DNA from: Spirochaetae bacterium HGW-Spirochaetae-1
GTDB lineage: Bacteria; Spirochaetota; UBA4802; UBA5550
Assembly: GCA_002839375.1 (NCBI GenBank)
Contig: PGXY01000011.1
Coordinates: forward strand, 310,001 to 374,000
DNA: 64,000 bases
Direction: 5' to 3'
Below the pieces are notes generated by a model. It did not search any database and was not told the DNA's origin. It saw nothing but the letters and a program-made list of their open reading frames with translations. Position numbers and translations under genes: made by a program. Of the stretch, positions 6,772 to 63,848 are shown piece by piece (within the stretch, counting starts at the first letter, position 1; each line of letters starts with the position of its first letter).

Positions 6772-6800
6772 AACAGGTAAGTCGGGTTGAGGAAAAAACA

Positions 6801-7073
6801 ATGACAGATATAATGGTAATAAAAATACTGCGTGAATCCTTGATGACGACATTGATCGTGTCGGCACCCATAATGGGAATAGGAATGATAGTAGGTCTTA
6901 TCGTGGCGATATTTCAGACAACCACTTCAATACAGGAACAGACGCTGACCTTTGTTCCTAAGATTATAGCCATTTTTGCCGCATTGCTCATTTTCGCCTC
7001 GTGGATGATACGAACGCTCGTGAACTATACATACAATGTTTTTGAGATGATAGGGAAAATGGGCGGGGGGTGA
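6801..7073 (+). CDS. fliQ: FliQ, flagellar type III export gate protein
   Basis: 90 residues with two transmembrane helices, the standard FliQ size. It shows VGLIVAIFQTTTSIQEQTLTFVPKI, the family signature, and ends in a short amphipathic tail. GAGGAA precedes the ATG. The stop TGA overlaps the fliR start (TGATG), so the two are translationally coupled. FliQ packs around the FliP5-FliR1 core of the export gate in the inner membrane. Confidence 0.97.
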   Translation: MTDIMVIKILRESLMTTLIVSAPIMGIGMIVGLIVAIFQTTTSIQEQTLTFVPKIIAIFAALLIFASWMIRTLVNYTYNVFEMIGKMGGG

Positions 7074-59608: not shown

Positions 59609-61744
59609 ATGAAATCATTTTTTGATCCCCAATCCATGGTCATTTTCGGTCTTACCTCGAAAAACATCAATATCCCCGCATACATTCTGAAAAATACCCT
59701 TCGCTGGGGATATCAGGGCGCCATATTCGGTGTCACACCTGGACATGCCGGTGAAGAGGTGGAGGGGATACGCGTCCATAACTGTCTGGAAGACCTTCCC
59801 GTGGTGCCGGAACTGGCGGTCATGCTGATCCCGGCGCGTTTTATTCCGTCGGCCATGGAGGATTGCGGAAGGCTGGGGGTTAAAAGGATAGCCATCCTTG
59901 CCGGCGGATTCAACGAATCGGGGGAAAACGGCGAAGACCTGGCCCGCAGTATCACCGGGGTCGCTGCGAAGTATGGTATACGCTTCATGGGGCCCAATGG
60001 ACTGGCCGTGGCGGACGCTCACAGCGGAATTTGCCTTCCTTTTGTTCCGCATAGGAAAATGGGCGAGGGAGGTTTTTCGTTTATTACACAGAGCGGCGGG
60101 CTGTGCCTGGTGCTCTGGAATATAATGAACGACGAAAATGTGGGAATGGCCAAGTTCGCCAGTATCGGAAACAAACTCAATATCGACGAGGCTGATATTC
60201 TGGAATATCTCGGCACGGACCCGCGGACTACGGTGATCGGATTGTACCTGGAAAGTATCGGCAACGGCCGGCGCCTGGTGGAGGCGGCAAAAAAAATAAA
60301 TAAACCCATCATAGCGCTCAAGGCCAATGTCTCGGCCGCCGGATCGCGGGCCGCAATGAGCCACACTGCGTCCATGAGTAACGACGACGATATCGTCAAT
60401 GCCGCTTTCGAACAGGCCGGTATTATACGGATAAATCATGTTCACGAGTTTATCAGCATGGCGAAAATTTTCAGCCTGCCTCCCATGCGGGGCAACAGGC
60501 TTATGGTTATGACTCCGGGGGGAGGCGCTGCGGTGATAAAGGCCGATCTGTGCGAACAGTATGGCTTCGAATTCGCTGATCCGGGAAGGGAGTTCTATGA
60601 AGGGCTGAATCAGTATACCAATGCCGGTGTCATTCGGTTTTCCAATCCCCTGGATATGGGTGATATTTACAATGTCAGGGCTTACCCGGAAATTTTTCGT
60701 AACGCTCTCAGTAATGAAAATGTCGACGGCGCCATATATGGTCACGCCCTCCCGCTTTTCCCCGATGATGACAGCAGTATTTTCAGACAGATGTTCTACA
60801 CCGATATCACCGCTGAGACCGCCGATGTAATAAATTCCACAGGTAAGCCCCTGGGAATAAGTATGTCTTCACCGCAGACATCTCATGTGAAAATATGCAG
60901 AAAATTTGATTATCCCCTTTTCAGCAGGACAGAGGAAATGATTAAGGCGCTTCGCGTTCAGGCCGATTTCCATGCCAGGATGGCAAGGGGAGAAGAAAAA
61001 CCTGCAGCATCACGGACTGATATGGACGAGAAAGCCCTTAATACATGGCTGCATGACCATGAGGGGGACTTGGGAGAGGAGATCCTCGAACTACTGGGCC
61101 TTGCGGGGATTCCGGTCATGGATTCATGTGTTGTCCGGCACGAAGAAGAGGCGGCACGGGCAGCATCTGAGACGGGATATCCTCTGGTTATGAAGATAGT
61201 TTCGCCCGATGTGCTGCACAAGAGTGACGCGGGCGGTGTCGTAATCGATATCCGCGATGAAGATGCGGCCCGGAAGGCCTTTGGCGATATCAGGGAAAAC
61301 GTTGTGTCCATGTGCCCCGATGCCCGCATTGAAGGAATGCGGCTTATGAGGATGGCGGAGCCCGGACATGACATGTTTGTAGGAGCGCTTCGTGACGAGT
61401 CTTTCGGCCCGGTCGTGGTTTTTGGTTACGGAGGAATATATACCGAAGTCTTCAGGGATATTGACAGGGTGCTCTGTCCTTCTTCGCGGAAGGAGATCGA
61501 GGGTAAACTGATGAAGCTGAAATGCACGTCGATTCTCAGGGGCGCGCGGGGGCGGGGGAGAAGCGATATCGAGGCTTATATCGATATCATTCAGAGAGTT
61601 TCACATCTCATGTTTCTGTGCGACGGCCTGTGCGAACTGGACCTCAATCCTGTAAGGGTTTTTAATTCTGAATCGGGAGCCCTTGTGCTTGATGCCAGGG
61701 GAAGAATTAAAGGTGCAAAAATGACGGAGAGTATTTCACGGTGA
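59609..61744 (+). CDS. ADP-forming acetyl/acyl-CoA synthetase (fused alpha-beta)
   Basis: 711 residues, the fused two-domain form. The alpha part has the CoA-binding Rossmann start (FFDPQSMVIFGLTSKNINIPAYIL), GPNGLAVADAHSG, SFITQSGGLCLVLW, and the phospho-histidine loop AAMSHTASMSND. The beta part is an ATP-grasp domain (GIPVMDSCVVRHEEEAARAASETGYPLVMKIVSPDVLHKSDAGGVVIDI; EGMRLMRMAEPGHDMFVGALRDESFGPVVVFGYGG). It interconverts acyl-CoA plus ADP and acid plus ATP, conserving energy during fermentation. A TetR regulator with twin operators lies upstream. Confidence 0.93.
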   Translation: MKSFFDPQSMVIFGLTSKNINIPAYILKNTLRWGYQGAIFGVTPGHAGEEVEGIRVHNCLEDLPVVPELAVMLIPARFIPSAMEDCGRLGVKRIAILAGGFNESGENGEDLARSITGVAAKYGIRFMGPNGLAVADAHSGICLPFVPHRKMGEGGFSFITQSGGLCLVLWNIMNDENVGMAKFASIGNKLNIDEADILEYLGTDPRTTVIGLYLESIGNGRRLVEAAKKINKPIIALKANVSAAGSRAAMSHTASMSNDDDIVNAAFEQAGIIRINHVHEFISMAKIFSLPPMRGNRLMVMTPGGGAAVIKADLCEQYGFEFADPGREFYEGLNQYTNAGVIRFSNPLDMGDIYNVRAYPEIFRNALSNENVDGAIYGHALPLFPDDDSSIFRQMFYTDITAETADVINSTGKPLGISMSSPQTSHVKICRKFDYPLFSRTEEMIKALRVQADFHARMARGEEKPAASRTDMDEKALNTWLHDHEGDLGEEILELLGLAGIPVMDSCVVRHEEEAARAASETGYPLVMKIVSPDVLHKSDAGGVVIDIRDEDAARKAFGDIRENVVSMCPDARIEGMRLMRMAEPGHDMFVGALRDESFGPVVVFGYGGIYTEVFRDIDRVLCPSSRKEIEGKLMKLKCTSILRGARGRGRSDIEAYIDIIQRVSHLMFLCDGLCELDLNPVRVFNSESGALVLDARGRIKGAKMTESISR

Positions 61745-61750
61745 GGATAA

Positions 61751-61785
61751 AAATAAATCCCTCCGCCCGCAGGCGGGGGAGGGAT
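61751..61785 (-). terminator. Terminator after the cysteine-repeat lipoprotein (minus strand)
   Basis: A GC-rich stem (ATCCCTCC with GGAGGGAT, GCC with GGC, bulge of three bases) spans about 61757-61785. Read on the minus strand it is followed by TTTATTTTTA. It ends the cysteine-repeat gene, and also lies just after the acyl-CoA synthetase stop. Confidence 0.7.
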
Positions 61786-61811
61786 CGGAGAATGGTGAGA
61801 TTTGTAAGAGA

Positions 61812-62792
61812 TTATTCTTCCGCTGCAGTACCGTCTGTCATGTTTATGATGAATGTTTTTTCCTTATCAATCACCAGTACAGGATAGCAGGTTCCGTTGA
61901 AGGTTATCATCGCGTCGAGGGAGAAGGTCTTTTCCACTTCCTTGTCGTCGGTCGTGGCTGTTTTTTCCACATTAATGACAAGGTGAATCGTTCCGCTCAA
62001 GGGATAGGGATACGTCTCCCTGTCCGTAGACCATATTACATCGCCGTATGCTTTTGACAATGTCATGTGGTATGAATGGATAAATTTGTCCAGGGGGTGC
62101 GTCCTGGTTGCCGTCTTGTCGGCAGTACCGGTCCCGTTGATAGTGATGGTTTCGTTTTCACCGACAAGGCCTGTAATGTCGAACTGGTGTGTACGGGTTA
62201 CGCTTTTAACAAGCACGGGCGTGATCAGTTCCGACGTGAATGAATCGCTCCAAACGACTTTTTCCGTGGTCAGGGCGTCATAGGTATCTTGTTCTTCACC
62301 GTCGATGTCATAATACGCTACGGTAAAAGTGATATCGGCGGAACCGTTCCTATTGTATCCGTTCATCACACGGTGATGGGCTACATAGGGCTCCAGCAGG
62401 CAGAGAGAATCACAATTCTGATCACAGGTACAGTCACAATCCTGATCACAGTTCTGATCGCAGGTACAGCTGCAGTCCTGATCGCCCGTCTGATCACAGG
62501 TACAGTCGCAATCCTGATCACAGTTCTGATCGCAGGTGCAGTCGCAATCCTGATCGCAGGTGTGGTCACATGTTCCGTCACATGTACCGTTCCTGACAGG
62601 TCCAACGGCATCAACCGCTTCCTCCATGACGGCCAGATCGTCGTAGCTGGCTGTGGAATAAGAAGCGGCAATTACGGAAGCCGTATCTTCAACAACGGCG
62701 GTGTAGTCATTGGATGAATCCTGTGACACTTCACAGCCGGAATAAATAAAAGGCACAAAAAACAGTGTTAGAATAAGCAGTGATTTTTTCAT
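61812..62792 (-). CDS. Cysteine-repeat lipoprotein of unknown function
   Basis: 326 residues from the ATG at 62792, which has GGGAGG upstream; the longer frame to 62945 is unlikely. The signal peptide ends YSG-C20, a lipobox. Residues 71-131 hold 19 cysteines in a near-perfect repeat; four 12-residue units CDCTCDQNCDQD span 83-130, with one Cys replaced by Gly at 103. The remainder (about 140-326) is a beta-rich domain (ITINGTGTADKTATRTHPLDKF) without a match I recognise. The cysteines could bind metal or form disulfides. Function unknown. Confidence 0.85.
   Translation of the reverse strand: MKKSLLILTLFFVPFIYSGCEVSQDSSNDYTAVVEDTASVIAASYSTASYDDLAVMEEAVDAVGPVRNGTCDGTCDHTCDQDCDCTCDQNCDQDCDCTCDQTGDQDCSCTCDQNCDQDCDCTCDQNCDSLCLLEPYVAHHRVMNGYNRNGSADITFTVAYYDIDGEEQDTYDALTTEKVVWSDSFTSELITPVLVKSVTRTHQFDITGLVGENETITINGTGTADKTATRTHPLDKFIHSYHMTLSKAYGDVIWSTDRETYPYPLSGTIHLVINVEKTATTDDKEVEKTFSLDAMITFNGTCYPVLVIDKEKTFIINMTDGTAAEE
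62403..62546 (-). repeat. Four tandem 36-base repeats encoding cysteine-rich units
   Basis: Four 36-base units (codons 83-130 of the lipoprotein) each encode C-D-C-T-C-D-Q-N-C-D-Q-D with small changes. The near-identical DNA could vary in copy number by recombination or slippage. It also creates a long open frame on the other strand that is not a gene. Confidence 0.85.
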
Positions 62793-63098
62793 GTTTAAAC
62801 CTCCCTTTTCGCCCATGGCGGTATATGATTTTGTATTGATGCGCATGTTAACAGAGAACATCCCTTGGAAATTTGAAGAGCAGGTATTCGTCGTATGACA
62901 ACGACTCTTTAAAAGTACTACAAACAAGGTAGATAATCCGGACATCTTTGCAGAAAAAATATTGTATTAATCAGCTCCAATCCCCGGGAAATATTAATTG
63001 ACATTTCCGTTGATGCAGTGCCTCATTCCATCCAATAGCGTAAGAATTCACGGTTTTCCATGGATTCTTCAGATAATTCAGATATTTGCGAGGAACCG
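62793..63098. other. Gap between the divergent cysteine-repeat and secreted-protein genes
   Basis: This 306-base stretch holds no convincing gene. It carries a small inverted repeat (GTCGT near 62893 with ACGAC near 62904), and a TTGACA at 62998-63003 without a good -10 element at the expected distance. It should contain promoters for both flanking genes. Confidence 0.4.
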
Positions 63099-63848
63099 AT
63101 GAAAGCCCTGAAAATGTATATCCTCTTTAGTATTATTGTTTTGCTGGTAACCGGGAATCCCGGTTATTCCGACGGCGGCTGCGAGGGAGAAAACGTCCCG
63201 CTGTCGGCATCTGAAAAAAATTATGCGGCGGCTGTATTGAATAAAATCAAGGCAGTGCTGCCGAAAATGACGGGCTACTATCCAACCTTCCAGGAAAGTC
63301 CCGCGGAAGATTACTTCATGGATTGTGATAAAAAAAAGTATGTAAAAGATTCCGAGGTATATGCCACCTACGCCACGCAGGTAACTGCTGAGAACATGGG
63401 AGGTATAGAGGAATGCTCAAAACTAATGGAGAACGCGGGTCCCGGTGATGCCGATCAGCTGAAAGCGGCCCTTGCCTTCCAGGAGTGCATGAAGGGCAGC
63501 GGTGTGGGGACCGGGTCGATCAAGGTGGTGATCAACCAGGGCGGAGTATTCGGCGGTTCAGGAGACCAGGGGAGCATTAACCTCTCCCTTTTTAAAAGTA
63601 TAACCATTGCCGGGGCCGATAACGCTTTTCAGGATGCCAATGGTGTCATATACATCTGCCTGGGGAACTGGACCGTGAAACAGCCTCCCGAGTGGGACCA
63701 CCGTGCCCTGGTGGCGCAGATACCGGTCAACAGGATAAATGCCGTGGTAAATATGATCATTATCGTGGAAGCCAGCAACGACAAAATACGGAAGGATATT
63801 TTGGGCCAGATCAATATCAGATCCCTGAAGGCCCTGATAACAAAATAA
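63099..63848 (+). CDS. Secreted protein of unknown function
   Basis: 249 residues from the ATG at 63099, with GAGGAACCG upstream; a longer frame to 63060 is possible. A signal peptide (MYILFSIIVLLVTGNPGYSDGG) is followed by a mature domain with several cysteines (GGCEGENVPLS, FMDCDKKKY, GGIEECSKLM, AFQECMKG) and a glycine-rich segment (VINQGGVFGGSGDQGSINLSLFKSITI). No family is recognised. A strong terminator follows. It is probably periplasmic or surface located. Confidence 0.75.
   Translation: MKALKMYILFSIIVLLVTGNPGYSDGGCEGENVPLSASEKNYAAAVLNKIKAVLPKMTGYYPTFQESPAEDYFMDCDKKKYVKDSEVYATYATQVTAENMGGIEECSKLMENAGPGDADQLKAALAFQECMKGSGVGTGSIKVVINQGGVFGGSGDQGSINLSLFKSITIAGADNAFQDANGVIYICLGNWTVKQPPEWDHRALVAQIPVNRINAVVNMIIIVEASNDKIRKDILGQINIRSLKALITK

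Follow-up and report, generated by a model that had tools for sequence, protein, structure and literature searches.

A Cys/Asp repeat array in an exported lipoprotein: elaboration of an unnamed lipoprotein family, apparently confined to one lineage

The window, the 64,000-nucleotide stretch of DNA analysed here, encodes on its reverse strand a lipoprotein in which a dense Cys/Asp array lies between the lipoprotein signal and a C-terminal domain with long beta strands. From sequence comparison, we regard this protein as a genuine and rare elaboration of an existing family of lipoproteins, apparently specific to one lineage. The gene (61812..62792; all of its features are on the (-) strand) is an open frame of 326 codons plus stop, with its ATG at 62792, 7 nt downstream of a Shine-Dalgarno-like AGGGAGG (62800..62806). 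A longer in-frame start is available at 62945; the lipoprotein signal starts at 62792. The type II signal peptide (62733..62792) ends in the lipobox Ser18-Gly19-Cys20 (FIYSGC), which occupies the same place in the relatives described below, and Cys20 is the predicted lipidated residue. It is followed by an acidic N-terminal segment (residues 21-70; 62583..62732) with a D/E-Y..V likeness to the relatives that is visible by eye; against the profile of these relatives, the segment scored E = 5 and ranked sixth among the called proteins, which gives the likeness no statistical support as homology.

The Cys/Asp array spans residues 71-131 (62400..62582). The protein has Cys at positions 20, 71, 75, 79, 83, 85, 87, 91, 95, 97, 99, 107, 109, 111, 115, 119, 121, 123, 127, 131 and 302, and thus an even total of 20 non-lipid Cys, 19 of them in the array. 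Successive array Cys are spaced by 4,4,4,2,2,4,4,2,2,8,2,2,4,4,2,2,4,4 residues, where the lone 8 marks Gly103 (codon GGC, 62484..62486), the single unit position without its Cys. The array is built of four 12-residue units at residues 83-130 with the consensus CDCTCDQNCDQD, preceded by the degenerate lead-in CDGTCDHTCDQD; the successive units read CDCTCDQNCDQD, CDCTCDQTGDQD, CSCTCDQNCDQD and CDCTCDQNCDSL. Tandem Repeats Finder recovered a 36-nt unit in 4.5 copies with 80% matches. Cys makes up 31% of the array and falls at almost every third residue, in CxC and CxxxC spacing, and Asp accounts for about 30%. Given 0.97% Cys in the window's other proteins, the probability of at least 19 Cys in 61 residues is about 1e-23. 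Among 1,684 open reading frames from approximately 2.08 Mb (40% of the genome), the array is the extreme outlier, with 19 Cys in 61 residues against 10 in 61 for the next, ferredoxin-like proteins. The same genome encodes two further small, exported Cys-rich proteins (L234, 7111-7434; L230, 4693-5142), which have 8 Cys per 61 residues and no visible kinship to the array. Searches of the array sequence against Pfam, NCBIfam, PHROGs and PDB sequences gave no match.

The array units are nearly identical at the protein level and match at only 25-33 of 36 positions between copies at the DNA level, which makes an assembly artefact unlikely and indicates that the array is not freshly expanded. In the Cys frame, pS between units was 0.69 and pN 0.15, compared with 0.18 and 0.25, and 0.21 and 0.24, in the other two sense frames. 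In one antisense frame pS likewise exceeded pN, owing to coinciding wobble positions, yet that frame is interrupted by stops. Changes from the unit consensus comprised 8 synonymous and 5 non-synonymous substitutions (P = 0.005 against a random-mutation null, for a small sample of non-independent units). The differences between units thus show signs of purifying selection on the Cys/Asp protein sequence, which is support rather than proof, and divergence mostly at synonymous sites argues for an array that is old and constrained. The preliminary description had counted 19 Cys in residues 71-131 with regular CxCxC and CxxxC spacing, which the Cys positions bear out exactly, and its reading of four nearly identical 12-residue units with a Cys lost at Gly103 agrees with the sequence. 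Its suggestion that the repeat DNA invites copy-number variation is weakened by the mostly synonymous divergence of the units.

The C-terminal domain (residues 132-326; 61815..62399) belongs, by sequence homology, to an existing, unnamed family of envelope lipoproteins. Four relatives, with 26-35% identity across 125-176 residues, were found at E 7e-11 to 1e-13 among 395 genomes of the phylum to which a Flavobacteriaceae locus belongs (L084; Bacteroidota); there the gene is present in 4/4 genomes of one small class (loci L203-L206). In BLASTP, relatives matched the domain at E 8e-8 to 2e-13. Searching with a profile in a further phylum, that of a delta-proteobacterial locus and probably Myxococcota, added two relatives (L214-L215), one of them strong at E 2e-14 and the other weaker at E 7e-5. 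All relatives are lipoproteins of similar layout, with one match per genome: the lipobox Cys is aligned in every member, and a short N-terminal segment precedes a beta domain with conserved TGL, NGT and SGT positions. Their non-lipid Cys number 0-2, and the repeat array is absent; the linkers that they carry at the array position are unrelated and vary in length. As the relatives do without the array, the basic function of the family does not depend on it.

Across 393 genomes of the phylum to which the window belongs, the family profile found no relative besides the window's own gene; 20 further genomes of mixed phyla yielded none. Searches with the whole protein returned no relative from the window's own class, from 84,980 species genomes, or among plasmids and phages, and the family profile had no match in viral sequences. 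Weak matches in two related genomes were rejected as false; one overlaps a STAS-type gene (L002) and the other a ThiL-like gene (L202). Either horizontal acquisition or multiple loss would fit this patchy distribution. The gene neighbourhoods of the relatives vary between phyla and offer no functional lead, and Pfam and NCBIfam hold no model covering the family, which is scattered over at least three phyla and went uncovered by the curated libraries searched. The beta-rich domain, left unassigned in the preliminary description, has relatives at E values down to 1e-13. Of the two parts for which separate searches had been proposed, the array matched no family in the libraries and the beta domain was placed in the unnamed one. 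The original outline of a lipobox, a thiol-rich array and a beta-rich domain is supported throughout (FIYSGC with Cys20, 19 Cys and a long-strand C-terminal domain), and the idea of a new surface module holds in part: the array has no match in the sequence libraries, but the protein itself belongs, by its beta domain, to an existing family.

The C-terminal domain is probably an all-beta meander, according to the structural models. AlphaFold without relatives gave a pLDDT of 35; with the four relatives, pLDDT reached 70-82 over much of the C-terminal half only and was low elsewhere. Long beta strands were placed at residues 81-97, 104-121, 130-146 and 151-164 of the domain construct. Foldseek of this model against the PDB gave no significant match (best E 0.04), and gasdermin matches were set aside as reflecting long hairpins in a weak model.

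For the function of the array, a tethered, metallothionein-like thiolate buffer for soft metals is the leading candidate, which we put forward tentatively, as a reading that could well be correct and could as well, or slightly more readily, be wrong. The array, which is absent from the relatives found and takes the place of their linker, arose by tandem duplication of the 36-nt unit between the signal and the beta domain. The N-terminus is predicted to be lipidated and the protein to reside in the envelope, in the periplasm or at the surface, where the beta domain would fold and then anchor or bind elsewhere. The CxC and CxxxC thiols, together with adjacent carboxylates, could take up several soft metal ions, Cu(I), Zn(II) or Cd(II), in metal-thiolate clusters, and the array may thereby buffer envelope metal in the manner of a membrane-tethered metallothionein. 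The fuller version is a lineage-specific membrane-tethered metallothionein: a family of plain envelope lipoproteins would have gained, in a single lineage, a genetically encoded, phytochelatin-like Cys/Asp array that serves outside the cytoplasm as a store or scavenger of soft metal. This is a candidate that we hold to be possible and rather doubtful. If the array does bind metal, it would represent a metallothionein-like store fixed to the bacterial envelope, one that was built up within a conserved lipoprotein as a repeat was duplicated. It would then also be a naturally occurring equivalent of the metal-binding peptides that have been engineered for surface display. Several points count against metal buffering: the lipoprotein gene has no gene for a metal transporter, a sensor or a redox partner next to it, the relatives lack the array, and the even total of non-lipid Cys also fits disulfides.

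Metallothioneins are small Cys-rich proteins that bind several metals as thiolate clusters (PMC7558416). The array resembles the bacterial metallothioneins SmtA and MymT in its approximately 30% Cys, its CxC motifs and its shortness, and with 19 Cys in 61 residues it lies within the Cys range of such proteins (about 25-35%, with CxC). However, SmtA and MymT are small soluble proteins, whereas the array forms a repeat within a lipoprotein that is exported. Neither the PDB nor Pfam holds a metallothionein, or any other metal protein, with similarity to it, and by sequence it is not a member of the metallothionein family. A second comparison is with the periplasmic copper storage proteins Csp1, for example NGO1701 with its 15 Cys (PMC12510493). 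Csp1 is an exported, Cys-rich buffer of envelope metal; the lipoprotein is likewise exported and Cys-rich, and its buffering is only proposed. Csp1 carries a Tat signal and folds into a bundle of four helices whose tube is lined with Cys, in contrast to the low-complexity Cys/Asp repeat behind a Sec-type lipoprotein signal described here, and identity with Csp1 (four-helix bundle, DUF326-type sequence, Tat signal) was rejected, as there was no Pfam match.

The main rival to metal buffering is a disulfide-locked spacer, in which the array would be oxidised in the envelope into a compact rod with regular cross-links, such as a small beta-helix or knotted ladder, that carries no metals. We consider this rod a possible outcome and a somewhat unlikely one, and the same doubt attaches to its suggested role of holding the beta domain away from the membrane. 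The array does sit at the linker position, its protein has an even number of non-lipid Cys, and beetle antifreeze proteins fold 12-residue Cys-rich repeats as a disulfide-braced beta-helix (PMC8038014). Although the unit length is shared with the TmAFP-type hyperactive antifreeze proteins, the array units do not match their consensus TCTxSxNCxxAx, and an antifreeze of this type was rejected because CDCTCDQNCDQD misses that consensus, with its Cys at positions 2 and 8 and its TxT ice face (PMC8038014).

The genome itself also speaks mildly against such a spacer. Based on crude gene and signal calls in the same 40% of the genome (2.08 Mb), Cys totals were even in 85 and odd in 123 soluble exported proteins, and even in 24 and odd in 34 lipoproteins. 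There is no even bias in either class, and so wholesale disulfide formation is not evident. Exported proteins in this part of the genome included thioredoxin-like motifs WCKWC, WCHWC and YCVPC, which we take to be DsbD-gamma or TlpA-like and hence reducing; no CPHC-type DsbA motif was found among them. Together, Cys parity and the thioredoxin-like motifs mildly favour free or metal-bound thiols.

Alternatively, the array could be a low-complexity linker born of slippage and tolerated rather than used, a hypervariable linker filled by repeat expansion whose residues serve only as a hydrophilic spacer. The relatives' unrelated linkers of differing length at this position would fit such an origin, as would the Cys-Asp runs from simple repeats that are common in scans of other genomes. 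Across the phylum, a generic Cys-spacing pattern returned simple repeats and antisense noise only, and the Cys/Asp-array pattern matched at least 119 loci in 84,980 genomes, the matches listed being mostly hexanucleotide CDCDCD runs, with no lipoprotein bearing such an array among them or in viral contigs. We nevertheless judge a merely tolerated linker to be unlikely, since most differences between units are synonymous, the units retain nearly every Cys, and exposing 19 thiols to no purpose would be costly.

The pattern matches also included other Cys-rich proteins. Clostridia genomes share a cytoplasmic-looking protein with a dense Cys-Asp array (L061, L063, L087, L130, L133, L138, L149, L160); the array follows an acidic helical N-terminus, precedes a zinc-ribbon-like C-terminal end and varies in length by locus. 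In L061 and L138, for example, a dense array is placed between two domains, as in the lipoprotein, but these proteins lack a signal peptide, their repeats are simpler CD dipeptides, and their domains are unrelated to those of the lipoprotein. Two Candidatus Merdivicinus genomes (L059, L075) contain an open frame of 214-215 residues with 47-49 Cys in Gly/Asn/Asp-Cys repeats.

The least probable explanation, that sequencing indels have put the array in the wrong frame and the true linker is Ala/Thr/Pro-rich without Cys (frame +1: ATAPAIRTVIRI), is largely refuted and in our estimate highly improbable: an unrelated locus (L106) does provide a Cys-Asp frame that merely re-reads an ATAP repeat, but here the lipobox and the homologous beta domain share the array's frame, so that two compensating errors would be needed, and among the sense frames pS exceeds pN in the Cys frame only. 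The Cys frame is genuine. In L106 (Silvanigrellales, ~6798-6842, (-) strand), the CDCT/CDRT-like Cys frame is a shifted reading of an ATAP-repeat protein, a case that calls for caution with Cys-array claims made from raw DNA.

The lipoprotein gene is a single, stand-alone gene that converges with one for an acyl-CoA synthetase-like protein (59609-61744; Pfam), and its neighbours further include genes for TetR, LysE and an orphan secreted protein. The last of these (63060-63848, (+) strand) is divergent from the lipoprotein gene and had no relative in 59 related genomes and no family match. Beyond the stop codon of the lipoprotein gene, a hairpin followed by a T-rich tail (61757..61786, (-) strand) is the probable intrinsic terminator of its transcript; absent from a consensus terminator scan, it has a predicted stability of -23.3 kcal/mol (z = -4.1), which none of 200 shuffled sequences equalled.
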